Virus record (IMG/VR): IMGVR_UViG_3300042261_002385 | Location: 372,001-436,000 of that record | Source: a virus | Length of the DNA: 64,000 nucleotides | Direction: 5' to 3' (one strand) | Part shown: in pieces, positions 7,005 to 63,269 of the stretch | Position numbering within the stretch: position 1 is the first letter of the stretch | Layout of the letters: the number at the start of each line of letters is the position of its first letter | Notes under the pieces: generated by a model | The model's database searches: none | Told to the model about the DNA's origin: nothing | The model's input: only the letters and a program-made list of their open reading frames with translations | Made by a program: the position numbers and the translations under genes

Positions 7005-7247
7005 ATGAAACACTTAAATAAATTTAATGAAGGTTGGTTTTCTAAAGATGAAGAAAATGAACCAGTAGATGCGGTAAATAGTAAAATTGAAGATGCTGCT
7101 TATAGTTTAGGATCATTTGGTACTATGACTAAGCAAGCCGCTTTTATAAACGGTGCTAAATGGGCTATTCATAATTTAACAGATGACGAGATTAAATTAC
7201 TCAGAGAGAATACTGATAAAGACGACCATAGTTTCTTTGGTTTATAA
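7005..7247 (+). CDS. Leader-bearing small protein
   Basis: 80 residues. Starts MKHLNKFNEGWFSKDEENE; the possible cleavage site is F-N-E rather than L-F-E. The rest is a helical segment with a Gly/Ala-rich middle (SLGSFGTMTKQAAFINGAKW). No family recognised. Member of the 6.5-9.1 kb cluster, each gene with its own AT-rich leader. Confidence 0.72.
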   Translation: MKHLNKFNEGWFSKDEENEPVDAVNSKIEDAAYSLGSFGTMTKQAAFINGAKWAIHNLTDDEIKLLRENTDKDDHSFFGL

Positions 7248-7256
7248 TAATTTAAT

Positions 7257-7266
7257 TTAATATAAT
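7257..7266 (+). promoter_or_regulatory. Late-type promoter motif variant
   Basis: TTAATATAATAG, 17 bases before ATG 7283. One-base variant of TTAATATATA. Confidence 0.45.
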
Positions 7267-7282
7267 AGAGAAAAATAGGATT

Positions 7283-7888
7283 ATGAAATACTTAAAATTA
7301 TTTGAAGAATTCAAGATTGATTCAGAGCGAAGTTATAACATCGGGGATACTATTAGTGGTGTTCCAGGTAGCGATACATCTATAGTTGTTCGAATTGATG
7401 AAAGGGGAAAACCTATATCTGTTATGGCGAGATTGGATGTTCATCCTCTCTTTACTCAAAGAGATATAAAAGAACTTTATGATCTTTCTGATGCAAAGAG
7501 CATTGGTGAAATATTAAGGCTACCGGAAAATAAATTCTCAGGAAATTCCGGGTGGAGAATTCCTCTTTTGAGTGAGGTAGATATCATGAGAAAGATGTAT
7601 AAAGGTCAAATAAGTCAAAATTGGAACTTTACACGACTTGAAGAGCCTCTTTATCTATATTCTAATCATGAGTGTAGAGAATTTTGGGAAATGGATCCAA
7701 ATACTCGACTAACATATCAACTAAAAAATAAAGATAAACTAGGACTTTTAGATTTTGCAGGAGGTGGATTAGATAAATTAGGAACCATCACAAAGCAGTT
7801 TAATATTAGACTTGTATATGACCTTTATAATTATAAATATTCAGATACTCTGAAAGATTTTGTTAAAACACCAAGATTTGATAGTTAA
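7283..7888 (+). CDS. Leader-bearing protein, function unknown
   Basis: 201 residues. MKYLKLFEEFKIDSE leader with L-F-E. Contains GDTISGVPGSDTSIVVRID, then NSGWRIPLLSEVDIMRKMY and a C-terminal GGGLDKLGTITKQFNIRLVYD. The GWRIP...YLYSN pattern is loosely reminiscent of phage/Bacteroidetes DUF1566-like sulfatase-fold domains, but I cannot assign it securely. Probably packaged if the leader works. Confidence 0.72.
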   Translation: MKYLKLFEEFKIDSERSYNIGDTISGVPGSDTSIVVRIDERGKPISVMARLDVHPLFTQRDIKELYDLSDAKSIGEILRLPENKFSGNSGWRIPLLSEVDIMRKMYKGQISQNWNFTRLEEPLYLYSNHECREFWEMDPNTRLTYQLKNKDKLGLLDFAGGGLDKLGTITKQFNIRLVYDLYNYKYSDTLKDFVKTPRFDS

Positions 7889-7955
7889 AAAAAAGACATT
7901 TTTAAATTTTATTATTAAATTATAATATAGAGAAAAAATAGAGAAAAATAGGATT

Positions 7956-8315
7956 ATGAAATATATTAAATTATTTGAAGAATGGAGTCCTAATTTAGAG
8001 TATGATGAATCCCAGAAAGAGGAGTTGAAAATAAATTACGAAAAATACGTAATGTCCAGAGATTATATTCCTAATATGATTAGAGATTTAATTAAGAAAC
8101 ATTTGTCTGAAAAATGGCATCCAACTCCCACACTAGATATTGTGGAAGTTAAGTGGGAACCAGAACCTTTCAAAGATCTTGCGAAACAAAAGGGTATTGT
8201 CAGGAAAAAAGAATTTAATGATGTTACTTATGCAGGAAAACTTACTCTAAAATCTGATTTTGCAAATACCCCAATTAGTTATAGCACAGGTGGTAACCCA
8301 ATTTGTTGGTGGTGA
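7956..8315 (+). CDS. Leader-bearing protein, N-terminal part of a frameshifted gene
   Basis: 119 residues. Leader MKYIKLFEEWSPNLEY (L-F-E). The frame ends abruptly at SYSTGGNPICWW, while the +1 frame over the same bases continues VTQFVGGDYRAMLGERF... and stays open to 8547. This suggests that one gene of roughly 195 codons was broken by a single-base change near 8280-8315, or that a frameshift is used. The body is Lys/Glu-rich. The product as written may be truncated. Confidence 0.65.
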   Translation: MKYIKLFEEWSPNLEYDESQKEELKINYEKYVMSRDYIPNMIRDLIKKHLSEKWHPTPTLDIVEVKWEPEPFKDLAKQKGIVRKKEFNDVTYAGKLTLKSDFANTPISYSTGGNPICWW

Positions 8316-8547
8316 TTATAGAGCGATGTTAGGAGAGAGATTTGATTTAATCTTAGCCGAAGCGACTAAATTACTTGATAATGTGTTGGATTTACCATAT
8401 AAAGGCGAAATGGATGATAGTAGCCATGGACCAATTTCTTTCAGACAAGTTGATAATACCTATACACTCAAACAAGAATTTGACAGACCACATGAATATA
8501 AGGCAATTTTCGGTTTAATACTTGATAAGGTTTATTTAGAAATATAA
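8260..8547 (+). CDS. Downstream part of the frameshifted 7956 gene
   Basis: Open frame overlapping the previous one by 56 bases in the +1 frame. The credible coding part is from about 8283 (FVGGDYRAMLGERFDLILAEA). It has no leader, no promoter and no convincing start of its own; the ATG at 8260 lies inside the coding part of the upstream frame. Best read as the C-terminal half of the same gene; sequencing error, mutation and programmed +1 shift are all possible. Confidence 0.55.
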   Translation: MQIPQLVIAQVVTQFVGGDYRAMLGERFDLILAEATKLLDNVLDLPYKGEMDDSSHGPISFRQVDNTYTLKQEFDRPHEYKAIFGLILDKVYLEI

Positions 8548-14931: not shown

Positions 14932-16737
14932 ATGTCAAATTGGACTTTAATTAAAAGAATCTGGGAATTCGCTTACCCTTTTAGAAAAACTATTGGAGTA
15001 ATTTTCTTATGTATTCTTTTTACAGCCATCATTGATGGAATCAATACTTATTTTTTAAGTAATATTTTTGATATCATTCAGAAACACTCAAACGATCCAA
15101 ATTATATGAATGCAGCTCTTCTATCAGCTGCATTGGCTGGAATAGGAGTATTTGTAAGAATTCTTATTTCAAGATATCAAGGTAATCTTGAAATAAGAAA
15201 ACTTGATATAACTGCCTCAAACCATTTAAATCATTTTTCAATTGCAAAATATTTTGGATTTTCTAATGGTCAACACATCAATGAACACTCCGGAGTTAAA
15301 CAAAATATAATTACATCTGGTTTTCAATCAGTTCAAGGTCAAATTCAGCTTTTTGTTTATCACTTACTTCCAGCAGTTGCTAACTTTATAGTTTCAATTG
15401 TGATGTTGTTTTATATTAGCTCCTACATAGGATTCGCTTACTTAGGTGTGTCTTTTATTTTTCTTTGGTCGATATATAAGTTCAATACTTATCTTCAACC
15501 AAAATTGAGAGAAGTAAGAGACGCTAGAAATCAAACAGCTAGAACAATTTCTGAATTGTATCGATTTGTATTTTTAATTAAAAATGAAGTAGCTGAAAAG
15601 AAATCCTTAAATGATTTGGATGATGTTCAAGATGCGCATCAACAGGCCTATGAAAAGACTTGGCTACCTGGAAATAATTGGTTGACCATCATTCGATTAT
15701 CAACTGCTGGATTTAGATACTTAACCATACTTTTTGCAGTTTGGTTGTTATTTAATGGTTTTATAACTGCAGGTGCTATCTTCTTAATCTTTACCTGGTC
15801 TCAAAACTTCATAACGTCTCTTTGGATGATAACTGATATGCAAAAACAATTTATAACAGATAAAATTAACATTGAAAAGTATTTTGAAATTTTAGAAATC
15901 AAGCCTGACGTTCAAGAAGTTGAGACTCCAATAAGTTCAGATTTAATAGGAGATATTGAGTTTAGAAATGTCGAGTTCAGTTATCCACAAAGAAAAAAAT
16001 CACATAGTGATAAATTAGAAGATGAACTTCAATCAGAAATGGTTTTGAAAGGACTAACATTTACAATTAAAGAAGGTGAAAAAGTTGCCTTTGTCGGTGA
16101 AAGTGGTTCGGGTAAATCTACAATTGCGAATCTTGTAAGAAGAGCATTCGATCCACAAAATGGTGAAATTTTAGTAAATGGTAATAATCTTAAAGAATTA
16201 GAACTAAAATCATTTCTTAGAAAAATTGGAAGCGTAGACCAAGAGGTAAATCTCTTTGATAAGAGTATTCGAGAAAACATTTCTTATGGAACAGAAAGAC
16301 TACTAACCGATGAGGAGTTAAATAACATATCAAAGATGGCTCGTATTGATTCATTTTACAAAAAACTAGAACATGGTTGGGACACTATTGTTGGTGAACG
16401 TGGAGCTAAAGTATCAGGCGGTGAAAAACAAAGAATTGGTATCGCAAGAGCATTGGCTAAGAATCCAGAAATACTTATCTTTGATGAGGCGACTTCTGCA
16501 CTTGACACTGTAAGTGAAAGAGTGGTTCAAAAATCAATCGATGCTGTTAGTAAAGGAAAAACTTCTATAATCATCGCACACCGTCTTTCAACTGTAAAAA
16601 ACTGCGACAAGATATTTGTATTAAAACAGGGAGTATTATTAGCTGAAGGAACACATGAGCAACTTTTAGAAAGTTGCGAATATTATAAAGAATTAGTAAA
16701 ACATCAATTAACAAATAAACCAACAGAAAATGTATAA
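14932..16737 (+). CDS. ABC exporter, fused membrane and ATPase domains (MsbA-like)
   Basis: 601 residues. The N-terminal ~320 residues contain six hydrophobic segments of a type I exporter. The C-terminal ATPase has Walker A GESGSGKST (residues ~389-397), Q-loop VDQEVNLFD, signature VSGGEKQRIGIARA, Walker B ILIFDEATSALD and the H-loop IIIAHRLSTVKNC, all apparently intact. As a half-transporter it would act as an inner-membrane homodimer exporting lipid, drug or peptide. A complete ABC exporter in a phage is unusual. Downstream gene overlaps by 8 bases. The upstream secreted DUF1573 gene could be functionally linked (inference). Confidence 0.95.
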   Translation: MSNWTLIKRIWEFAYPFRKTIGVIFLCILFTAIIDGINTYFLSNIFDIIQKHSNDPNYMNAALLSAALAGIGVFVRILISRYQGNLEIRKLDITASNHLNHFSIAKYFGFSNGQHINEHSGVKQNIITSGFQSVQGQIQLFVYHLLPAVANFIVSIVMLFYISSYIGFAYLGVSFIFLWSIYKFNTYLQPKLREVRDARNQTARTISELYRFVFLIKNEVAEKKSLNDLDDVQDAHQQAYEKTWLPGNNWLTIIRLSTAGFRYLTILFAVWLLFNGFITAGAIFLIFTWSQNFITSLWMITDMQKQFITDKINIEKYFEILEIKPDVQEVETPISSDLIGDIEFRNVEFSYPQRKKSHSDKLEDELQSEMVLKGLTFTIKEGEKVAFVGESGSGKSTIANLVRRAFDPQNGEILVNGNNLKELELKSFLRKIGSVDQEVNLFDKSIRENISYGTERLLTDEELNNISKMARIDSFYKKLEHGWDTIVGERGAKVSGGEKQRIGIARALAKNPEILIFDEATSALDTVSERVVQKSIDAVSKGKTSIIIAHRLSTVKNCDKIFVLKQGVLLAEGTHEQLLESCEYYKELVKHQLTNKPTENV

Positions 16738-33349: not shown

Positions 33350-34075
33350 TTATTTATATAATGTAGTATCTATCGTTTGTAGAATAAAATCACACACCAA
33401 TATATGTCCTCGAGCAGTCGGATGTATTCCATCTGATGTCATACTTTGTAGATCATAAGGCTCAATAAATTGACATTCGGTTAAATCTGATTTTAATTTC
33501 AGCTGTAGGTTTTTTCTTTTTTCAACATATGGAATCCAATCTGACCTTTTACTTAATAGATTTGCTGGTCTTCCGACAGGAAGAATGTTAATATCCATAA
33601 ACTTACCTTCAATCTTCCAACCTAAGTTAACCCAAACATCACAACCATGTGAGTTGGATATGTCAATCATTTTCTGAAAATTAGAAATAGTTGTCTCCAA
33701 AGGTATTGACATATTTGAAGCATCATTTCCACCACCATATAAGATAACACGGTCCCAATTTTTACCAGTCTTAAACATCGATTCTAATTTTTCTAACATC
33801 CATTTTGAAGTCTTACCACCAGAAGCTCCAACATCAACAGTGACACCATATGGTGATAACTTTTGTGATAAGTGATTAGGCCAAGTCCAAGTTATCTTTT
33901 GTCCAGAATTAGTTGTAACAGCACTTTGTGAATCACCTATAATAAGAATAGACATCGGTGGTTTAATAGTATCAGTTACAACCTGACTGTTTGTTTTGAT
34001 AAAACTAATTTGTTTCTCATCTCTTAAAACTCCAGAAAACAAAAAAGATAAAATTAAAATTCCAAGCAATCTCAT
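33350..34075 (-). CDS. Secreted SGNH/GDSL-type hydrolase
   Basis: 241 residues. N-terminal hydrophobic segment (LLGILILSFLFSGVL), then ILIIGDSQSA (block I, nucleophile Ser), DVGASGGKTS (block II), ILYGGGNDAS (block III, Asn) and DGIHPTARGH (block V, Asp/His). All four SGNH blocks are present. Such enzymes deacetylate or de-esterify polysaccharides or lipids. Its place among fibre genes suggests virion-associated or surface glycan modification. The signal segment argues for export; alternatively it is a membrane anchor. Confidence 0.88.
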   Translation of the reverse strand: MRLLGILILSFLFSGVLRDEKQISFIKTNSQVVTDTIKPPMSILIIGDSQSAVTTNSGQKITWTWPNHLSQKLSPYGVTVDVGASGGKTSKWMLEKLESMFKTGKNWDRVILYGGGNDASNMSIPLETTISNFQKMIDISNSHGCDVWVNLGWKIEGKFMDINILPVGRPANLLSKRSDWIPYVEKRKNLQLKLKSDLTECQFIEPYDLQSMTSDGIHPTARGHILVCDFILQTIDTTLYK

Positions 34076-35471: not shown

Positions 35472-36344
35472 ATGAAACCACTACTTACTCTTATTGCTAT
35501 AATATTATACACAAATTTATTTTGTCAACAATCACAAGATACAGTAAGTCTTAGTCCACAACAATTATTCGAGTTTAACTCTAAATGGAATAACTTAGGT
35601 GTATCACAAATCTACGTAGATTTCTCTAAAGATGTGCTGTCAAACTCTGATTTATCATTCGGAGTAGTTGGTAGAAAAGTATCGACTACACTAAATCTAT
35701 CATATAATATACAATCTCCAAATGGCAACTGGAGTCATATGATACTTAGTTCGATAAATCCTGTTTGGAAATACTATGGTTTAGGCTACGGATTTTCACA
35801 TACTACCGATAAAAGAGTTACAACATTACAATCAATGATATCCTCTGATTTCAAGTTTCAAAACAATATTAATTTGAATTTTATAGATATTTACAAAACA
35901 AAAAAAATAGGTAAACTGGGATGGGGAATAACCTTGTCTAAAACATACTGGGATGAATGGCAAGGACCGTGGGAAGGCCAATATATTGTAGACTCATTAG
36001 GTAATTGGGTTAGTAATATTTATCCTATCAATCCACCATCTAATCAATTATCAACTCGAGCTATAATAATGTATACATATACATTTAAAACAAAAATTGT
36101 TGATATATCACCTCAAACATTCATTACATCGGATATTCATAAAGTATTTAAAAGTCCTGAATTGCAAATTAGTTACTTTGATGATGTAAACCTGGATATT
36201 TACTACGGTGTTTGCATGAATTGGAAAATAACCAACAAGTTTCGACTTAATACTACTTTAAGATTTAATAACACATATGATAAACAAAATTTAGGATTCA
36301 AAAAAAGTAATCCTATCCTTTTTATGATTGGAACAAGTTTTTAA
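35472..36344 (+). CDS. Outer-membrane beta-barrel-like protein
   Basis: 290 residues. Signal peptide MKPLLTLIAIILYTNLFCQ. The mature part is made of alternating aromatic/polar strands (LNLSYNIQSPNGNWSHMILS; YYGLGYGFSHTTDKRVTTLQ; TLRFNNTY), and the chain ends in Phe after a beta strand (ILFMIGTSF), the classic BAM-recognition ending. Size suits an 8-12-strand barrel. A phage-encoded outer-membrane protein could block superinfection or alter adsorption; inference. Convergent with 36341. Confidence 0.82.
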   Translation: MKPLLTLIAIILYTNLFCQQSQDTVSLSPQQLFEFNSKWNNLGVSQIYVDFSKDVLSNSDLSFGVVGRKVSTTLNLSYNIQSPNGNWSHMILSSINPVWKYYGLGYGFSHTTDKRVTTLQSMISSDFKFQNNINLNFIDIYKTKKIGKLGWGITLSKTYWDEWQGPWEGQYIVDSLGNWVSNIYPINPPSNQLSTRAIIMYTYTFKTKIVDISPQTFITSDIHKVFKSPELQISYFDDVNLDIYYGVCMNWKITNKFRLNTTLRFNNTYDKQNLGFKKSNPILFMIGTSF

Positions 36345-51611: not shown

Positions 51612-52001
51612 GTGAAAAAGATTAAATCATTTAGTTTATTTGAGTCAGTTGATGATGCATTAGACATTTTACCTGTTGTAAAGGATATGTTATTAGAGTT
51701 AAGTGATTTAGATTATATTACTAATTGTGTAGTAAGAAGAATGGATGGTTGTGAGTATATTAGAATAGGAATTTCTAAGCCAGTTGTGATTGGAGATAGA
51801 TATGATGTTAAGGCATCATTCGAGTGGATTGATATAAAAGATATTATGGATACTATTATAGAGTATTTAAAATCCGAAGGGTATCATTATCAAGTGGATA
51901 AGGGAACCCTATCTTGGAGTGGTCATCCTATTGTGGTCACTTCTGGAAATGCCTTTGAAGGTATTAAATCAAGATGTGAAATGTGGTTTGAAAAGAGATG
52001 A
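51612..52001 (+). CDS. Leader-bearing protein, paralog of 40134
   Basis: 129 residues, GTG start. Leader MKKIKSFSLFESVDDA (L-F-E). Shared with 40134: VKDMLLELSDLD, a WxDIKDIM segment, YLKSEGYHYQVDKGTLSWSG and the ending SRCEMWFEKR. ATGA junction with the next leader gene. Function unknown. Confidence 0.8.
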   Translation: MKKIKSFSLFESVDDALDILPVVKDMLLELSDLDYITNCVVRRMDGCEYIRIGISKPVVIGDRYDVKASFEWIDIKDIMDTIIEYLKSEGYHYQVDKGTLSWSGHPIVVTSGNAFEGIKSRCEMWFEKR

Positions 52002-52513
52002 AGAGGTTAAAATCATTTAAGTTATTTAATGAATCAAAAGATTATAATTTATCTACTATAAAGGATATGTTATTAGATTTTACTGATAAGGATATTGATG
52101 TTGATGTCAGTGAAGGTTCTTGGATTTTAGATAATGGGGAAGTTGAATATGTTAAGATAAAGATTGGAAAATTTAATGGACCTCTTTTTAGTATAGAAAG
52201 GTGTTTATTAGATGTTATAGATTATTTAGAAGAATCTGGGTTTGTTATGATGGATGAGTCTTGGTATTGGAATGATTCTTGGCAGCATTACGTTGGGTGT
52301 CCTAATTGTTTATCAGATGATTTTGAGGACAATTATGGTTTACGTGGAGCAACTCGTTGTAATAAGTGTGAGTATATCGGGCCTCCTGATAGTTTTTTAC
52401 AAGACCAGTGGTCAGTTACAAGATATGATTTGGCAAAGGATATTAAGGGTAGGCAGGTTGAACAAATAGAGTTACTTTTCAGTGATAGAAGGAGTAAGTT
52501 CGGTGGTGGGTAA
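51998..52513 (+). CDS. Leader-bearing protein with zinc ribbon
   Basis: 171 residues. Leader MKRLKSFKLFNESKDY (F-N-E). The N-terminal half follows the paralog family (IKDMLLDFTDKDIDVDV; VIDYLEESGF). A four-Cys zinc ribbon follows (CPNCLSDDFEDNYGL ... TRCNKCEYIG), absent in the other paralogs, then a basic end (SDRRSKFGGG). A fusion of the family domain with a zinc module. Confidence 0.8.
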   Translation: MKRLKSFKLFNESKDYNLSTIKDMLLDFTDKDIDVDVSEGSWILDNGEVEYVKIKIGKFNGPLFSIERCLLDVIDYLEESGFVMMDESWYWNDSWQHYVGCPNCLSDDFEDNYGLRGATRCNKCEYIGPPDSFLQDQWSVTRYDLAKDIKGRQVEQIELLFSDRRSKFGGG

Positions 52514-52743: not shown

Positions 52744-53013
52744 TTAGAATGCTGGAACGGTGTCTTTAATTACTTTATCGTATTTATGATCAATTAAGAT
52801 AAAAGGAGCTGGAATTACCACTTGAGATCCGTCAGAGTTTCGGTAAGTGGCATAGTTTTCACCCAATTCGATAGAATCAGTGAACCAGATGGCTTTATGT
52901 TTTTCGCCTTTGTAGTGGACGTATCCTTTAATTTCATAACGCCAGGTGGTTTCTTTTTTGGATTGTTGACAACTTAAAATAAGTAACGTGGTTAAGATAA
53001 TTAGGTATTTCAT
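52744..53013 (-). CDS. Small lipoprotein
   Basis: 89 residues. MKYLIILTTLLILSCQQSKK has a type II signal peptide with lipobox LILSC. The mature part is beta-rich (WRYEIKGYVHYKGEKHKAIW; SDGSQVVIPAPFILID). It would be anchored in the outer or inner membrane on the periplasmic or surface side. Small phage lipoproteins often act in superinfection exclusion; here inference. Confidence 0.82.
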   Translation of the reverse strand: MKYLIILTTLLILSCQQSKKETTWRYEIKGYVHYKGEKHKAIWFTDSIELGENYATYRNSDGSQVVIPAPFILIDHKYDKVIKDTVPAF

Positions 53014-53054: not shown

Positions 53055-53807
53055 TTATATGATATTAAACCAACAGTATTGTTTATGCCAGTTTTGGGTA
53101 TGATTAAAGAAGTAACTTCCTGTTCTAGAGTTATCAATAAGTATTAGACCAGGTTGGTCTTGGTTATTTCCTCTACAAACTATAATTTTATCATCATCTA
53201 TTAATTCACTGAAATAGGTTTGTATTCCATTAAATTGATTTAGGGCATGATTTATATAAGGAGATGATTTTTTTCCATATATGATAGATGTAGCGGGTCC
53301 AATTCTTCCTTCCATACTAATTATACTTGAGCACATTTGTATCTTTGTAATTATTCTTCGATAATCTTGGTCAAAATCTCCGGTTAGTTTGACATCTAGT
53401 GATGACATTGGTCCATATGCAATTGATTTAGGAAGTTTAGTATTTTGGTTTAAGAAATCAATTACTTCATCTTTGAGTTTTTGGTAAGTCTCAAATTTTT
53501 TAGAAGTCAGTGTAAGTTTCATAATTTTTGGACTTATCACTTGATTTCCTGAACTACTTACTATTGAGTTATATTGTGAGCTTAAATCAACTGCTATTGA
53601 TGAAGTATTATTTTCTCTAAAATTGTTTAGTTCTTCAATCTTATCATCTAAAACAGCATCAACTACTAATTCTCTGTTTCGTTGTTTAATCTGTCTTTGA
53701 TATTCTTCTTCATCTTGTGATACCATATCAATATACATCAATTGAGCCGTTGGGTGACTCATTTGTTTATCTGAGTAGTTACAAATAGATTTAAGTTCGT
53801 CAATCAT
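53055..53807 (-). CDS. Unknown protein, possibly virion structural
   Basis: 250 residues. The C-terminal half has SIISMEGRIGPATSIIYGKK, DDDKIIVCRGNNQDQPGLIL and a Trp/Tyr-rich end. The G-x-x-(G/S)-N/T ... DK-V/I-I/V ... G layout loosely recalls the P-domain region of T4-type capsid or vertex proteins, but the protein is far too short for gp23 and I do not assign it. Ends 3 bases before the sorting-domain gene on the same strand. Confidence 0.72.
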   Translation of the reverse strand: MIDELKSICNYSDKQMSHPTAQLMYIDMVSQDEEEYQRQIKQRNRELVVDAVLDDKIEELNNFRENNTSSIAVDLSSQYNSIVSSSGNQVISPKIMKLTLTSKKFETYQKLKDEVIDFLNQNTKLPKSIAYGPMSSLDVKLTGDFDQDYRRIITKIQMCSSIISMEGRIGPATSIIYGKKSSPYINHALNQFNGIQTYFSELIDDDKIIVCRGNNQDQPGLILIDNSRTGSYFFNHTQNWHKQYCWFNII

Positions 53808-53809
53808 AA

Positions 53810-56260
53810 TTATCTTAATAATCTCACGCTACCCTGAAGTTCTCTTTTATCATCGTTTTTTGGAAGACCAAACTCGATAGTCCAGTTATAGATTCCATCA
53901 GGACAGATTTTATTATTATAAGTTCCATCCCATTTACCAGTAACATCAAAAGATTCCCATACCATTTCTCCCCATCTATTATACATAGTCATATGAAACT
54001 GATAGATATCAACTCCTGAAGTAATAATTGGAGAAAAGTATTGATTGTGTTCGTCTCCGTCTGGAGTAAATGAATTTGGAATATAAATTAATTCTTGTGG
54101 ACAAAGTTGAATAGTAACTGTTATATTTTGTGGATAAGATTGGCAGCCTAATTCCCAGCGAGTTGCTTGAAATAAAAACACACCTTCTTGATTCCAAGTT
54201 AAGTTAATTTGGTCTCCGATTAAGGTATCTCCAAAAGTTGACCATTCTGTATAACCTGGTTGTGAAAAAAGTGATACATAGGTATCAGTAATTGAGTCTC
54301 CTTCACATAGTTCGTGATACTCAGAATTAGTGATTTGACCATCAATTTGTATTGAGAATTGTGGACGTGGATTTACTTCAATTTGAGATGTTTGTGTAAA
54401 TTGACACCCTGATTGAATATAAGTATACGTTATGGTGTTTAGACCTGCTAATTGTGTTGTTGGACAGAACTGAGAATTTTGAACACCAACTCCTGAGAAT
54501 TGACCACCTACTGGTTGTGCAGATAATTGGACACAGTTATCATAGTCACAAAGTGGAAGAACTGGTGTGATTTGTGGAACGATATCTAAATCTACAATAG
54601 TAAATGTTTGTGGAGGTGAAAGACATCCAGTTACATCTTCTCCTATAACAGTTAAGGCATTTGGGTAAACACCACCAGCGACTCCTGTCACATCGAGTAA
54701 GATGTTTTGGGTTCCTTGACCAGAGATTGTTCCGATTGTTGAGGTCCAGTTATAGGTTAAGTTATTAAAAAGACTTGATGTTTGATAAGGGTTATTTGAA
54801 GAGTTAACACAAACTGTATCACTTCCTATTATTGGGTTTATTATAACTTGTGGTGGATCTGTTAAGGTAACGGTTCCAGTTGCTTGGCATCCATTAGCAT
54901 CGGTTACTACAACACTAAAGTTTCCTTGGCAAAGACCAGTTGCAGTTTGTCCAGTTTGATTATCAGACCAAAGATAAGTGTAGGGTGCAATACCTGCTAC
55001 TGGATTTACCACGGCTTGTCCATCACAGTAACTGTAGCAAAGTGGATTAGTTCCTGTAACTGGTGGTTGTGGAAGTGCTGCTGGTTCAACAATAGTGGCC
55101 AATCCTTGATAGCTACAACCAGATGCGTCCTGGAGTGTGAAGTTATAGTTTCCAGCACAAAGACCATTTTGTGTTAGTGAGTTTCCGACTAAACCAGGCC
55201 AACTTATAGTTATTGGAGCAGTTCCACCTATTGGAGTTACAATTATCTGACAAGTGCAATCACCATTACAAAGTGGATTCGTTATTTGAACTCCTGGAGG
55301 TGGTAGATTCGGGGTTGGAGTCACTAAAATAGTGTCTGGTCCTAAGTTTCCAGCTCCAGCATTACATTGAGACCAGCCTAGATTACAAGTTGGATAAACA
55401 AATTGACAAGTGTATTGAGTTGGTCCATTTGGAGTTACCGTGATTTGAGGTCCGGTTCCGATTGGAATTGGATTTCCAACTTGAAACCAAGTTAATGTAG
55501 GTGTCACTTGTGGACCTGATGGTGTCCATCTGTAAGCGTTGTTCTGAGTTGTCCACTGAGTTGAGTTTCTACCTGGAACAGTCACGGCTGCGGATCCTAA
55601 AAGGTTATGAACACCTTGAACTGCGGTTCCGCCAGCCCATTGTGGACAGTTTGGTTTATTTTGAATATGATTTTCGATTACGTTTGTAGATTCGTAAATT
55701 ACAATATGGAAAGTTCCTAATAGGTTAGTGCAAGAAAACATAGGAACGTTTATCCAACTAACAATTAATCTACGACATGGAGCTACGCCTTGAACTTGAT
55801 AACGGACTAAACCTCCGATACCTGGATTCCAGTCTTGCCACGGTCCCATAATACAATTCTTAGGTGTTAAGGCGTTTCCTGTTGGAATTGGATTTGATGT
55901 AAAAGTTGTTGGTTGACCAGCGCTAAATGAAATCCAACCGTTTGAACCTATCCAGAATTGTGTATACGTGTTTCCATAGTAACAGAAAGTAAAACCAATG
56001 TTAAATGGTCCAGATTGAGAGTCATCTCCTAAAGCAACAGTAGTTCCGGCATTGGGTTGACCGACAAATGGTATGTTAGTAACGGTATAGTTTGTGGTTT
56101 GATTTGGATTAGAACCAGGTCCACACTGAGAAAGGTCAGCTGTTAAAGTAGTTTGTGTTACTCCACAAGGTAGAGTTACATCTGGTCCTAAATAAGGACA
56201 ATATTGACCAAATGTGAATTGGGCAAAGATAAGGCTTAAAAAAATTATTAGGTTTCTCAT
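53810..56260 (-). CDS. Secreted SprB-repeat protein with type B type IX sorting domain
   Basis: 816 residues. Signal peptide MRNLIIFLSLIFAQFTFG. The N-terminal ~230 residues are a beta domain with many Cys. Residues ~330-470 contain two SprB-type repeats (NPLCNGDCTCQIIVTPIGG; NPLCYSYCDGQAVVNPVAG...YTYLWSDNQTG; VVVTDANGCQATGTVTLTDP). Ig-like segments follow, then a C-terminal ~90-residue gliding-motility-type domain: YIPNSFTPDGDEHNQYFSP, MYNRWGEMVWES and WDGTYNNKICPDGIYNWTI. This is the type B (CHU_C) T9SS signal of Bacteroidetes surface adhesins. The phage therefore appears to put a SprB-like protein on the host surface via the host's machinery. GC content and Pro/Thr/Gly-rich codons differ from neighbours. 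Confidence 0.93.
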   Translation of the reverse strand: MRNLIIFLSLIFAQFTFGQYCPYLGPDVTLPCGVTQTTLTADLSQCGPGSNPNQTTNYTVTNIPFVGQPNAGTTVALGDDSQSGPFNIGFTFCYYGNTYTQFWIGSNGWISFSAGQPTTFTSNPIPTGNALTPKNCIMGPWQDWNPGIGGLVRYQVQGVAPCRRLIVSWINVPMFSCTNLLGTFHIVIYESTNVIENHIQNKPNCPQWAGGTAVQGVHNLLGSAAVTVPGRNSTQWTTQNNAYRWTPSGPQVTPTLTWFQVGNPIPIGTGPQITVTPNGPTQYTCQFVYPTCNLGWSQCNAGAGNLGPDTILVTPTPNLPPPGVQITNPLCNGDCTCQIIVTPIGGTAPITISWPGLVGNSLTQNGLCAGNYNFTLQDASGCSYQGLATIVEPAALPQPPVTGTNPLCYSYCDGQAVVNPVAGIAPYTYLWSDNQTGQTATGLCQGNFSVVVTDANGCQATGTVTLTDPPQVIINPIIGSDTVCVNSSNNPYQTSSLFNNLTYNWTSTIGTISGQGTQNILLDVTGVAGGVYPNALTVIGEDVTGCLSPPQTFTIVDLDIVPQITPVLPLCDYDNCVQLSAQPVGGQFSGVGVQNSQFCPTTQLAGLNTITYTYIQSGCQFTQTSQIEVNPRPQFSIQIDGQITNSEYHELCEGDSITDTYVSLFSQPGYTEWSTFGDTLIGDQINLTWNQEGVFLFQATRWELGCQSYPQNITVTIQLCPQELIYIPNSFTPDGDEHNQYFSPIITSGVDIYQFHMTMYNRWGEMVWESFDVTGKWDGTYNNKICPDGIYNWTIEFGLPKNDDKRELQGSVRLLR

Positions 56261-57193: not shown

Positions 57194-57772
57194 TCAAAAA
57201 GGTGAAAGTTTATGACGTGAGGGGTTTAAATTTTTACCACTTCCTGCTACAGCGGACAAGCATTTCCAACATATCGCAGCTGCGAAAGTAATAATAGCTC
57301 CGGCTAAAACACCAATACCTAATCCAGTTCCTAATAAAGCAAGTAAAGTAACGATGGCTCCTCCAATAGTGATTGCTGCTGAACTTAACCAACCTATCAT
57401 TTTCAAGAATTCAACTGCACTCATACCTAAAATTTCTTCAGTAATTAACGTATAGTTTTCTTTTAATACCGGTTGTAATTTTTTCTCGTCAGTTGGTGGA
57501 ACATAATTTTTTAATTTTTCATAACAATCTTTTATGTCTTCTATACCAACTTTTTCGGATACTATTTTACAAGCAGCATTGAATTTATCGGCATATTTCT
57601 CCATTACCTCTTTAGCCTTCTCCATACCTTCGCGGTAAGATCCTGTTAGTTTATCCCAGAGGTTTTTAAGACTATTTTTTAGTGAGTCCCACCACTCACC
57701 CAATCTGCTAAATAATCCTTCTTCTTCATTAATGGAATAAGAAAAACTTTCGAATGATTTGACGTATTTCAT
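57194..57772 (-). CDS. Leader-bearing protein with Gly-rich membrane helices
   Basis: 192 residues. Leader MKYVKSFESFSYSINEEE (I-N-E site). Two helical charged regions (WWDSLKNSLKNLWDKL; AKEVMEKYADKFNAACKIV) follow. Then come hydrophobic Gly/Ala-rich helices (IGWLSSAAITIGGAIVTLLA, LLGTGLGIGVLAGAIITFAA) of glycine-zipper type, and a short basic tail. A packaged protein able to insert in membranes would suit DNA ejection across the inner membrane; inference. Late-type promoter upstream (57791-57800). Confidence 0.8.
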   Translation of the reverse strand: MKYVKSFESFSYSINEEEGLFSRLGEWWDSLKNSLKNLWDKLTGSYREGMEKAKEVMEKYADKFNAACKIVSEKVGIEDIKDCYEKLKNYVPPTDEKKLQPVLKENYTLITEEILGMSAVEFLKMIGWLSSAAITIGGAIVTLLALLGTGLGIGVLAGAIITFAAAICWKCLSAVAGSGKNLNPSRHKLSPF

Positions 57773-59256: not shown

Positions 59257-60906
59257 TTAAATTTTAGTTACGAGATTTTCTACAATTTGGAGACCTCTTA
59301 TTATTTTTGAATAATAATCATTTACTCTCCAATTTCTCAAATATTGACAAGCTCTTTCACCAGTATCTTGACCTAAATAATCTATGAAATTTGATAAATT
59401 ATCTAAACCGTAAGTGCTATTAGAAAAGAAGTTTGATAGACTTATCATTTTTTGACGAGCTATTTCTAAATCTTCTATGGTATTAAATTCACCAGACATT
59501 AGTCTTGTATAGAACTTTTGACTTATTCTTTCTAAACTTTCAACAATTGGTAAATATTTGTTTTCAGTTTCTTCACTGTCGGATTTTAGAATTTTTTTAA
59601 CAGTTTCTAAATTTTTAGTGATTCTAGTAGTTCTTTCAGCTGCTCTTTTGTAAAGGTCTTTGATTCTATTATTAATTTGATTAATGCAGTATTCTTTATT
59701 ACTTTCGTCTTCAGTAGACATCATATCATAATAAAGTTCTGATATTGATCCAAAATAGTTTTGATATCTTGAAGCTGATTCTAAGACAAACATTGACCAT
59801 CTACCACCAACTCCTCTAGATACTAAATTTTTGATATTAGACACATCGCCTATGATGTCAGCTTTAAGTGCAATTTGAGTAAGATATCTTTCAATATTTT
59901 GTTTTCTAACATCATCATCACTAACTACTAATCTGCTGCCAGATTTAAGTTCTTCTCTTTCATCTTTTATTTCACTTCTACGTTGATACTCACCCGACTT
60001 TAATTTATTTAAGTCTAACACTAAGGCAAAATGAGCATCTTTTATAGTAGATTCTACATTTGTTCCAGTATATGATTTAAAGTATTGGTTTAGTCCAACA
60101 TTCCACTCGTAAGGATCTACGGCATCTTTATCATCATCATCATCACCTTCTTCTTTTTCTTTAAGAACACAAATTCTGTTAAAATCTCCACCAGATACAT
60201 TCCAAGAGTATCTTCCATAACTTCTCCAAGCACTACCATTTGGTGATCCACCGTCGAACCTGTCTTGAATACAGAATACTTCTCCACCACTTTGAAAAAT
60301 CGTTGCAATTACATCTGGATCTCTATCATGTGCTGCAATTGTAACTTTTGTCAAGTGTGGTAGACTACGGAGAGTTCTTACTCCATTTGAATCAGGTAAC
60401 AGGGTAGATACTACTTTATATTTTTGCAAAGATTTTGATTTAGATGCTACGCTTCTAAGAACTCCATCAACTCCAGTTTGTGTGATGAATTTACCATCTG
60501 ATGAAAACCAGAATTTAATTATTTTTACCTCTGGTTGTTGTGGTTCTTTTCCAGATCCATCACAATGGGGACAATCAACGATTCTAGTTCTTTGACCCCA
60601 CATACGTGCTAATTTACCTGATTTACAAACCTCACCTTCAACACCGTGTTGTCTGAATGCGGTTTTAGAAGTCATTTTACAAGGTTCATCTTTAGGTTCA
60701 AATTTAACATTTAGTGCCTTTTTGAAAGGTAAGTATTCAAACATATCATCTGAAAACTGAGATAGTGGAAAATCGTAACTGCGAGCTAATTTTTCGAGTG
60801 TATTAATGAATCTTTGTTTAGATTCAGAATTTATATATCCTAAAATTTTAGTTAATTTAACTGATTCAAATGCTTCGAAAAGTTTGAGATATTTTAATTG
60901 TCTCAT
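59257..60906 (-). CDS. Large leader-bearing protein with Cys-rich motif
   Basis: 549 residues. Leader MRQLKYLKLFEAFESV (L-F-E). Residues ~70-125 hold cysteines at CKMTSK, VCKSGKL and DCPHCDGSGKE, the last being DnaJ-zinc-finger-like (CxxCxGxG). The middle has LRSLPHLTKVTIAAHDRDPD and GDDDDDKD. The C-terminal ~250 residues are helical. Probably a large internal head protein by leader. Overlaps the upstream leader gene by 4 bases. Activity unknown. Confidence 0.8.
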   Translation of the reverse strand: MRQLKYLKLFEAFESVKLTKILGYINSESKQRFINTLEKLARSYDFPLSQFSDDMFEYLPFKKALNVKFEPKDEPCKMTSKTAFRQHGVEGEVCKSGKLARMWGQRTRIVDCPHCDGSGKEPQQPEVKIIKFWFSSDGKFITQTGVDGVLRSVASKSKSLQKYKVVSTLLPDSNGVRTLRSLPHLTKVTIAAHDRDPDVIATIFQSGGEVFCIQDRFDGGSPNGSAWRSYGRYSWNVSGGDFNRICVLKEKEEGDDDDDKDAVDPYEWNVGLNQYFKSYTGTNVESTIKDAHFALVLDLNKLKSGEYQRRSEIKDEREELKSGSRLVVSDDDVRKQNIERYLTQIALKADIIGDVSNIKNLVSRGVGGRWSMFVLESASRYQNYFGSISELYYDMMSTEDESNKEYCINQINNRIKDLYKRAAERTTRITKNLETVKKILKSDSEETENKYLPIVESLERISQKFYTRLMSGEFNTIEDLEIARQKMISLSNFFSNSTYGLDNLSNFIDYLGQDTGERACQYLRNWRVNDYYSKIIRGLQIVENLVTKI

Positions 60907-62567
60907 ATTTGTGGACCTACGATTTCTACTTTTATTCCGCTTCTTCTTAGTTCGGATACATATTCTTTAGTTTGCTTGTCAACTATAAGGTCACCAGAAA
61001 TTACTAATTTTTTTACTTTTAAGTTACTGAAACCTTCTTTCATATCAGCTAATGTATCTAATGTATAAAGTATTTGTAATTCTTCCAATTCAGTGAATAT
61101 AGAAAGATCAATATCTCCTGTCATATCACAACTTAATATCTGAAGTTTCTTAATATTTGGATTTACTGAAACAATTTCTTCGAATATCTTAGAGTCAAAT
61201 TTACATTTATCAAATGCGATAGAGTCTGTTTTTACGTTGCTAAATCCTGACAATGTTTTTATTTTCAATGATTTGAATTTAATCCATTCTAAGTCAAGTG
61301 GAATTTGAGTCAAATTCTCTGGAATATCTGTAGTCTCAATTACTAGTTGTTTGATTTTTGCTTTTGGTGATATTTTTATCTTACTCCAGTCATAAACTGC
61401 ACTTAAGTAAAGTGATTTAGTATTTTTTCCAATAAACTGAGCTTGGTCAAGTCTCATTCTATCCATATAAGGAGCTCTAATTGAATCTTCAGGATCAATA
61501 TCCGGTGTGAATAAATATCTAGAAGAACTTGGGCTTGTGTTTTCAACGTTGCTTGAATATTTTGTTACAAGCTCGTCAAATATATCTTTCATCCTATCTG
61601 GATAAGCTCTGTCAAAGTAAATCTTTGCTTCACTTTGGTCATCAAATGATTCGATATTTCTAATCATCATTCTTGAAAGTGGTAGTTTATCTGATATTTT
61701 TTCATCATTCCAGAAAATCGGAGTATCAAATACAAAGAAAGCTGGAATTGAATTCGGATCGAAAACGTTTCCTAATAGTTGTTCTCTGTAGCCACCTGTG
61801 TATAAATGTTGACAAGAACTATAGAATTTTGAAATAGACATGTTCAAAATATCACTCGGATTGTGGTCAATCTGAAGATATATATCTCTTCCAAAGATTG
61901 CATATTCATATCTGTAGTCACTGTTGTGATTTTCTTTAGCTAAATTTCTTAATTGACTAATATCTCTTGATGAGAAAATAGTTGTAGAGACTCTATCATC
62001 TGGATAACATCTATTGTAGTCATCAACAAAGCTATTGATATTAATTAAGTTCGTTGAGAAAACAGGATCACCTGCATTCTTTTTAACACGAATCATATTT
62101 CCTTCTTCATCTCTAATTGGTCTACCATTCTCATCTTTTTGAATTCTTTCTGAAGCTTGAGTTTCTCTAATTTCTAATTTTCTAAATACCGGCTCATAGA
62201 TAAAAACTATTTGATCTACAGTTGGTGCTTGGATATTAAAATTATCCATAACCATTTTACTAGCATCGGTTAGAAGCTCTAAATTTATAGACTCTTGAAG
62301 AACATGATTGAATTTATCTGGAATACTTGTAAATGAATTCATAATATTTTCCATATTACAATCAAAAAAATAAGATAAAACTTTAAGTTTATCTTCTTCT
62401 TCAAGTTTCCATCTACCTTGTTTAATCTTATCGGTCGGATCTACTTCTTCATAATCTAAGTATTTCTCACCCCATTGTTGAGCAACAGCTTTTGCTTGTT
62501 TTGGTAAGATAATATCTTTGATTCTGGCTTCGTTTAACCATTGTTCTCTAGTTTTAATCCACTTCAT
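60903..62567 (-). CDS. Large leader-bearing protein with leucine-rich C-terminal region
   Basis: 554 residues. Leader MKWIKTREQWLNEARIKD (L-N-E), closest here to the T4 internal-protein form. The central region has MSISKFYSSCQHLYTGGYRE and IPAFFVFDTPIFWNDEKISD. Residues ~415-550 are LRR-like (LEWIKFKSLKIKTLSGFSNV; LKIPL-type spacing; TELEELQILYTLDTL; NLKVKKLVISGDL). The middle plus LRR layout suggests a recognition platform. Packaged location is inference. Late-type promoter just upstream. Confidence 0.82.
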   Translation of the reverse strand: MKWIKTREQWLNEARIKDIILPKQAKAVAQQWGEKYLDYEEVDPTDKIKQGRWKLEEEDKLKVLSYFFDCNMENIMNSFTSIPDKFNHVLQESINLELLTDASKMVMDNFNIQAPTVDQIVFIYEPVFRKLEIRETQASERIQKDENGRPIRDEEGNMIRVKKNAGDPVFSTNLININSFVDDYNRCYPDDRVSTTIFSSRDISQLRNLAKENHNSDYRYEYAIFGRDIYLQIDHNPSDILNMSISKFYSSCQHLYTGGYREQLLGNVFDPNSIPAFFVFDTPIFWNDEKISDKLPLSRMMIRNIESFDDQSEAKIYFDRAYPDRMKDIFDELVTKYSSNVENTSPSSSRYLFTPDIDPEDSIRAPYMDRMRLDQAQFIGKNTKSLYLSAVYDWSKIKISPKAKIKQLVIETTDIPENLTQIPLDLEWIKFKSLKIKTLSGFSNVKTDSIAFDKCKFDSKIFEEIVSVNPNIKKLQILSCDMTGDIDLSIFTELEELQILYTLDTLADMKEGFSNLKVKKLVISGDLIVDKQTKEYVSELRRSGIKVEIVGPQI

Positions 62568-62571
62568 AAAC

Positions 62572-62581
62572 TATATATTAA
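62572..62581 (-). promoter_or_regulatory. Late-type promoter motif TTAATATATA (minus)
   Basis: Minus strand TTTTAATATATAG ending 4 bases before ATG 62567. Confidence 0.65.
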
Positions 62582-62620
62582 AATATTTTGTTTATTTTTT
62601 GATTTAGATAAAAACTTTAG

Positions 62621-62628
62621 TATCTTTG
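62621..62628 (+). promoter_or_regulatory. Host-type promoter TATCTTTG
   Basis: -33 TTTG at 62598-62601, 19-base spacing, -7 TATCTTTG; ATG 62643 follows after 14 bases. Confidence 0.8.
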
Positions 62629-62642
62629 TCTATAACATAAAT

Positions 62643-63269
62643 ATGAAAACATCTTTTAAACTCTTTAACTTTTTAGGAGCACCAGTTGAAATTAGTGTCT
62701 GGTTTTTCTTAATTTTTCTTTTTTTGAATGTCAAAATAGTCTTAGCTCTTTTTATTTCTATATTAGTTCACGAAATGGCTCATGCGCTAGTTGCTCATAG
62801 ACTCGGCTGGGGATTCTATGGAATAAAACTAGACCTGTTTTTCGGAACTGCAAACGTAGATATGTCTATGCCTGAAAGAGATTCAATACGTGTCGTTGCT
62901 GCTGGCCCGCTAAGTAATTTGCTACTTGCTGGTGTGACTTTGTTAGGATATTCACTCGCTGTAAATTCAAACTTAGGTGTGAATCCACAAGTAGGTTCAT
63001 TTCTGAATAGTCTTTTTACTATAAATATGATTTTATTTATTTTCAACTTACTTCCTATTTTTCCGATGGATGGTGGTAGATTGGTTAGAGATATTTTACT
63101 TACTAGACTACGAAGTAGACTAAAAGCTCGTAGAATATCAGCAACAATATCATTGATAGCGTCAGCACTTCTTTTACTATATTCTGTTTCAATAAGTGCT
63201 ATTTTCTTAATATTCTTTTCGGCTTTCTTTATATGGATTGCTTATAAGGATCTTCAAGAACTTAAATAA
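62643..63269 (+). CDS. Site-2-protease-like membrane metallopeptidase (M50)
   Basis: 208 residues from ATG 62643, fixed by the promoter upstream. ILVHEMAHALVAHRL (His43, Glu44, His47) is the zinc motif in a membrane helix. FNLLPIFPMDGGRL (Asn135...Asp143-Gly-Gly) supplies the third ligand region. About five to six hydrophobic segments, no PDZ or CBS domain: a minimal S2P. The family cuts membrane-spanning anti-sigma factors or clears signal peptides. A phage copy could act on host envelope regulators (inference). Host-type promoter suggests early expression. Confidence 0.92.
   Translation: MKTSFKLFNFLGAPVEISVWFFLIFLFLNVKIVLALFISILVHEMAHALVAHRLGWGFYGIKLDLFFGTANVDMSMPERDSIRVVAAGPLSNLLLAGVTLLGYSLAVNSNLGVNPQVGSFLNSLFTINMILFIFNLLPIFPMDGGRLVRDILLTRLRSRLKARRISATISLIASALLLLYSVSISAIFLIFFSAFFIWIAYKDLQELK

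Follow-up and report, generated by a model that had tools for sequence, protein, structure and literature searches.

We found that a 436,265-bp virus record encodes an 816-residue protein with the features of a cargo protein of the type IX secretion system (T9SS), namely a Sec signal peptide, SprB-type repeats and a type B C-terminal sorting domain (CTD). Its relatives recur in conserved slots of unrelated phages, and at the same places a three-gene form can stand in for the single chain. In our preferred reading, the protein is a phage-encoded surface adhesin that would be made in the infected Bacteroidota cell and displayed via the host T9SS, its purpose being superinfection exclusion. We assign this full explanation a probability of about 0.5; export to the host surface, taken by itself, is well supported by the sequence signals and highly probable. 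The window analysed here is the 64,000-nucleotide stretch at positions 372001-436000 of the record, and no tRNA was found within it.

The viral genome and its predicted host

The tail sheath of the record is 68.6% identical to that of LR745206.1, a 634-kb huge phage, and 61.8% identical to that of LR756502.1 (642 kb); the next relatives of the sheath come from other huge phages, Lak phages and a Tenacibaculum phage. In the study of these huge phages, genomes over 634 kb were placed in the Mahaphage clade, whose predicted hosts are Bacteroidetes (PMC7162821). As judged by its sequence, the 436-kb record is a viral genome related to the Mahaphages. In at least 13 ORFs of this phage a leader, recognised by a simple hydropathy rule and by eye, not by SignalP, is followed by Q, against a background Q frequency of 3.2%. 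Q after the signal peptide is the Bacteroidetes Q-rule (PMC5837995); the Q-ending leaders match it and therefore give independent support for a Bacteroidota host. The sequences thus resolve the host to the phylum Bacteroidota and not to Flavobacterium, the genus that the preliminary description refers to.

The window also encodes a GDSL-type lipase/acylhydrolase with an apparent signal peptide (33350-34075, minus strand), a 601-aa ABC transporter (14932-16737, plus strand; phrog_2392, E 1e-124) and a 290-aa protein with a Q-type leader, a C-terminal Phe and an outer-membrane beta-barrel-like pattern (35472-36344, plus strand). The last matches no Pfam family; it may be an outer-membrane protein of the phage or a shuttle that escaped recognition. 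An exported protein of the endonuclease/exonuclease/phosphatase family (PF03372) with a Q-type leader, at L010 11626-12363 (minus strand), is a candidate for a phage-secreted nuclease. Otherwise different proteins at window positions 51612-52513, 57194-57772 and 59257-62567, along with the products of many genes genome-wide, begin with a similar leader (for example MKYLKxFExF or MKRLKSFKLFNES), which this phage group may use as a common tag for targeting or packaging.

Domain organisation of the 816-residue protein

The protein is encoded in a single uninterrupted frame with an ATG start (Table 1).

Table 1. The 816-residue ORF, its parts and its downstream neighbours, in window coordinates
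Feature	Positions	Strand	Remarks
Single-chain T9SS type B cargo protein (predicted), adhesin-like	53810..56260	-	816 aa; Pfam, NCBIfam, relatives, alignment
Sec signal peptide, residues 1-18, then Q19	56207..56260	-	Sequence; Bacteroidota Q-rule
N-terminal domain, residues 19-320	55301..56206	-	Slowest-evolving part, mean column identity 0.84
SprB repeat, best stretch, residues 404-436	54953..55051	-	PF13573
PKD_6 domain, residues 474-530	54671..54841	-	PF19408, 25.2 vs cut-off 25
CHU_C / T9SS type B C-terminal sorting domain, residues 726-812	53825..54085	-	PF13585, TIGR04131
250-aa protein, 2 nt downstream of the 816-aa gene	53055..53807	-	Same strand
89-aa predicted lipoprotein (MKYLIILTTLLILSCQQ)	52744..53013	-	Simple sequence rule only

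Its N-terminus reads MRNLIIFLSLIFAQFTFG and then QYCP, which by its sequence is a Sec signal peptide. The domain that follows matched no family in the Pfam search. SprB repeats (PF13573) were found in two stretches, the second at about residues 325-395; the score in this protein is just above threshold (30.6 bits vs a cut-off of 28), and the same family scores strongly in relatives, with 52.5 bits in L046. After the PKD_6 domain, the AlphaFold2 model is all beta and has two Ig-like beta-sandwich segments that extend to about residue 720. The model of the full chain is likewise all-beta and multi-domain, with a mean pLDDT of 69.9 and a pTM of 0.28 that make its domain arrangement unreliable.

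The C-terminal domain matched CHU_C with 52.1 bits against a Pfam cut-off of 27 (E 7.3e-14), and residues 726-814 matched the NCBIfam model TIGR04131, 'T9SS type B sorting domain', with 36.5 against a cut-off of 35. In the same profile search, CHU_C was detected at E <= 0.001 in 21/22 phage records and 0/14 control genomes, so its presence in phage records is not due to chance. Five motifs, A-E, are needed for secretion by a type B CTD (PMC12618676). Apart from that motif scheme, the alignment shows the conserved blocks FTPDGD, YNRWGE, WDGTYN and DGIY and the end G-x-V-x-L-L-R in this domain. The signal peptide, the SprB-type repeats and the type B signal that the preliminary description had read out of this ORF were borne out by the Sec leader, PF13573, and PF13585 with TIGR04131, respectively, and the sorting domain, whose possible breakage it had raised, is intact up to the last residue.

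The 250-aa gene downstream probably shares one transcript with the 816-aa gene; it is not kept beside the corresponding gene in other phages. The predicted lipoprotein is a possible operon partner.

A profile search against the PDB gave one strong match, GhpA of the Aureispira grappling hook (9flp and others; E 1.2e-45, in 9 stretches), which takes in the C-terminal domain (GhpA residues 5800-5886). Foldseek also ranked GhpA first (E 1e-19), followed by eukaryotic Ig-chain proteins as a generic match. The phage protein resembles GhpA in its homologous T9SS CTD and its repeat domains, whereas GhpA is a bacterial hook protein of 5,898 aa, a very long chain that the 816-residue protein lacks. SprB of Flavobacterium johnsoniae, also very large, has the signal peptide, SprB repeats and type B CTD in common with the phage protein. 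Unlike SprB, the latter has only 816 residues, its conserved N-terminal domain is of another kind, and no sprF is linked to it; sprB and sprF are linked (PMC12618676). The earlier designation as an SprB-like protein thus holds for the repeats and the CTD and does not extend to the N-terminal domain, the size or the genetic linkage, and the best solved relative is GhpA.

Relatives in conserved slots of unrelated phages

A scan of viral contigs identified 27 with relatives of the 816-aa protein, at 44-68% identity and mostly over the full length; the 634-kb and 642-kb huge phages carry relatives as well. The genomic contexts of the 27 are unrelated, comprising jumbo-type contigs of up to 291 kb, immuto-like myophages and others nearer to the huge phages. 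Together with the 436,265-bp virus record and its huge-phage-like tail sheath, these relatives uphold the claim that the protein is phage-encoded, and by sequence the gene is a recurrent phage gene, not contamination.

A full-length homologue, 45% identical, is present in a Flavobacteriales MAG (L057) among ordinary bacterial neighbours, and a bacterial origin of the gene is plausible. This homologue, and the GC content of the 816-aa ORF (0.387 vs 0.318 +/- 0.024 for the other genes of the window), would suit a passenger host gene that was picked up by chance and brings no benefit, or a misassembled bacterial stretch. The high GC may only reflect a protein rich in G, P and T, and the 27 viral relatives, the conserved slots and low dN/dS make the passenger explanation highly improbable; the relatives and slots rule out bacterial contamination or misassembly.

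An alignment of 19 sequences (18 from phages and the bacterial homologue) showed that every homologue has a hydrophobic leader followed by [SG]Q. Q19 is invariant in 19/19 while the leader around it varies, and the core CTD residues are invariant too. The dN/dS of the CTD is 0.07-0.29. These values indicate that the CTD is under purifying selection in this family and that no part of the protein is decaying.

In the immuto-like contigs (L041-L046), the gene order is sheath, sheath, tube, the 816-type gene, a 123-aa ORF, baseplate hub and tape measure. The cultivated Flavobacterium phage immuto has sheath, a tube-like tail completion protein, hub and tape measure, and the 816-type gene is absent. 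Because this slot is empty in immuto, the gene is an accessory insertion in a late operon and not a required tail part. The lom gene of lambda likewise sits among tail genes. The empty slot, and the location of the gene elsewhere in other lineages, led us to reject a fixed component of the tail module.

The position inside the tail operon of immuto-like phages nevertheless counts against our preferred reading to the extent that it would also suit a virion structural protein, a tail or head decoration that would keep its signal peptide and CTD as relics. Virions commonly bear Ig-like domains, and the protein has a weak match to a Hoc-like decoration protein (phrog_2973, E 0.011), its only structural PHROG match and not a significant one. 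On the other hand, the hydrophobicity of the leader, Q19 and the CTD are all maintained, and a Sec leader would take the protein away from the site of virion assembly, the cytoplasm. A phage that is viable in culture has nothing in this slot, and in the genome of the window the gene lies about 185 kb away from the tail sheath gene. We consider a virion protein improbable.

Two observations on these phages stand apart from the 816-type gene. Two adjacent, diverged tail sheath genes are present in the immuto-like phages L041, L046, L054, L084 and L085. Immuto itself has a run of exported genes (MW353176.1 9935-16409; L073 936-7410) that encode a non-specific endonuclease, a C-type lectin, a dockerin-like protein ending in LGDVNGTGLN and a cohesin protein with a type A T9SS signal, which suggests that this phage, which can be grown, carries a cohesin-dockerin surface scaffold.

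A three-gene form at the same slots

The window's phage also has, outside the window, three consecutive ORFs of 349, 188 and 189 aa (G000 60723-62934; L010 4923-7134), each with its own leader. The 188- and 189-aa ORFs correspond to successive PKD/Ig and Ig/CHU_C parts of the 816-aa protein, and the CTD is present only in the third. This three-gene version is paralogous to the 816-aa gene and is the more surprising of the two findings. We refer to its products as tip, adaptor and anchor. Upstream of them lies a gene for a large protein with a leader and a type A CTD (TIGR04183, 23.4 bits).

A scan with the 188-aa ORF gave 100 relatives, of which 80 were kept. Some 80 viral contigs (including L065, L067 and L078-L157) share the layout of tip, adaptor (about 187 aa) and anchor with CTD (about 188 aa), with leaders that end in Q; many of these contigs are near-duplicates, and 43 adaptors remain below 93% similarity. 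The tips vary in size (197, 262, 322, 349 or 632 aa, often about 197) while adaptor and anchor stay constant. The commonest spacing between adaptor and anchor is a one-base stop/start overlap, which, with the separate leaders conserved in about 80 contigs, rules out a chance split of a pseudogene.

The tips and adaptors nearly always terminate in I-x-H-N/D. When the search model was shortened by its last 14 residues and no tail was required, an H-N or H-D end was found in 83/83 adaptors and in 81/82 of the genes just upstream. Among all ORFs of at least 100 aa at these loci, 167/1,003 have such an end, so that about three others remain if the total includes all the counted tips and adaptors. 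In the proposed assembly, the subunits to be joined onward, tip and adaptor, bear the tail, and the last subunit, the anchor, bears the CTD instead. The tail of the adaptor aligns with the linker of the single chain, directly ahead of the start of the anchor. The adaptor model (pLDDT 91.1) places the final residues beyond the last strand and without secondary structure; the simplest reading of the model is that this free tail would dock into the next subunit. An intein-like reading of the terminal H-N was rejected: no intein domain matched, and nothing follows the Asn. Near the split cassette of L145, exported proteins of 384 and 455 aa (312-1466 and 7130-8497) end in S-I-G-P-I-Q-H-N and S-S-I-S-H-N and are possible alternative tips.

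Single-chain and three-gene forms occupy the same slots. Of the single-form contigs, 23 have homologous neighbours on both sides in common with at least one of 42 three-gene contigs, and this holds for the immuto-like as well as the jumbo lineage; for instance, the single gene of L041 and the triplet of L107 both lie between tube (83% identical) and hub (85% identical) genes. Because the flanks are homologous, the single chain and the triplet substitute for each other at one and the same locus. Among the genes flanking the cassettes in the jumbo lineage, PHROGs named none except a dehydrogenase and a weak tape-measure match. We also considered L068 (LR745206, 832 aa) as a fused three-gene cassette; the alignment shares mainly the glycine-rich tip and the CTD, and the evidence for the single chain therefore rests on the 816-aa family.

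As a stand-alone gene, the adaptor was found in 0 of 396 Bacteroidota genomes at E <= 1e-22, with a positive control of 2e-93 in the phage itself. A search of 50,697 annotated phages with the adaptor and the 197-aa tip matched only the two huge-phage records, in neither case as a three-gene cassette. A bolder reading, which we hold to be less likely than not, is that Bacteroidota phages have remade a T9SS adhesin of one chain as a three-part fibre that assembles itself; a swappable tip and a constant adaptor would each plug into the next subunit by the free I-x-H-N/D tail and ride out on the CTD of the anchor.

Predicted dependence on a host shuttle and the proposed route to the surface

Type B cargo depends on PorP/SprF-like shuttles; these are in short supply in wild-type cells, bind cargo stoichiometrically and are not recycled (PMC12618676); SprF binds SprB (PMC9143113). 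A cognate shuttle near type B cargo is usual and not universal, as three F. johnsoniae substrates are also orphans (PMC12618676). TIGR03519 (PorP/SprF) had no member in the genome of the window's phage (G000) or in 15 further phage records, whereas the bacterial positive control yielded 10. Because no phage record tested encodes PorP/SprF, the phage cargo must borrow a host shuttle, which it may tie up. Export by the host type IX system to the surface, as claimed earlier, is consistent with the Sec and CTD signals, and the cognate shuttle is not in the phage. Against our explanation, type B secretion as a rule requires a cognate shuttle, which is mostly encoded by a neighbouring gene.

From the signals, their conservation, the exchange of forms at shared slots and the missing shuttle, we infer the following course of export, display, assembly and purpose. 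The 816-aa protein would be exported by Sec; removal of the leader would expose Q19, to be cyclised by the host glutaminyl cyclase. The host T9SS would then recognise the type B CTD, and the cargo would be handed over to a PorP/SprF-type shuttle of the host, since no phage tested encodes one. Displayed on the outer surface with its N-terminal domain facing outward, the protein may change phage adsorption to the infected cell, both by covering the cell and by occupying the scarce type B shuttles of the host, and so, by analogy with other systems, cause superinfection exclusion. In the three-gene version, tip, adaptor and anchor would be exported separately and probably assembled end to end via their I-x-H-N tails. 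Tip and adaptor have no CTD to take them across the outer membrane, which is a further point against the proposal.

The missing phage shuttle would also fit a decoy that jams the T9SS: shuttle-less cargo would sequester host PorP/SprF or SprF-like proteins and lower the SprB-type adhesins that other phages need, display being a side effect. The scarcity of type B shuttles in the host and their stoichiometric use (PMC12618676) argue in the same direction. Such a decoy would need neither a strongly conserved N-terminal domain of 300 aa nor a swappable tip, and we regard it as quite unlikely to be the main function.

Discussion

At the same surface location, the protein could serve adhesion instead: infected cells would adhere to one another, to a surface or to prey, which would bring the progeny into contact with new hosts. 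Both the architecture and the closest solved relative, the GhpA grappling hook, are adhesive, and a swappable tip gene with constant adaptor and anchor is what adhesins with changing targets have. However, a cell near lysis would gain little from sticking, and the conserved N-terminal domain has no known ligand. Adhesion as the purpose is a possible, if rather unlikely, alternative; our preferred reading holds superinfection exclusion to be the most likely purpose. The interpretation given in the preliminary description is supported in part: phage origin, a Bacteroidota host, the export signals and an adhesin-like architecture hold, and receptor blocking, receptor mimicry or altered motility of infected cells are hypothetical roles.

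Phage-encoded proteins with a T9SS sorting signal have a precedent in Cryophage, whose type A cargo (an endoglucanase, a GH39 and a PA14 protein) was called a unique occurrence and was proposed to use the host system, perhaps in superinfection exclusion (PMC7468147). The Cryophage proteins bear type A signals, whereas the protein described here is adhesin-like, of type B, recurrent across phage lineages and accompanied by a three-part version. T9SS domains have also been noted near BACON genes of crAss-like phages (PMC6949934). Huge phages are stated to encode proteins that are predicted to reach the membrane or the surface of the host cell and that may influence other infections (PMC7162821); the main text of that study does not mention T9SS, and the material that could be searched contained no type B cargo, split cassette or tail motif. 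The literature surveyed, mostly papers outside subscription, gave no report of a phage type B cargo, its recurrence in conserved slots or a three-part form, which is not proof of absence.

T9SS cargo has been regarded as a bacterial feature; the phages described here, though unrelated, have time and again a type B adhesin of their own in conserved slots, which offers a direct test of how phages remodel the Bacteroidota surface. The natural exchange of one chain for three provides a comparison for how the T9SS might carry proteins without a sorting signal. If the three-part fibre is real, its assembly would follow a new principle, in which subunits are linked in a plug-in or donor-strand-like manner and exported piggyback by the T9SS, and the fibre would belong to a new class of surface organelle installed by phages. 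The conserved I-x-H-N tail may turn out to be a compact tag for linking proteins.
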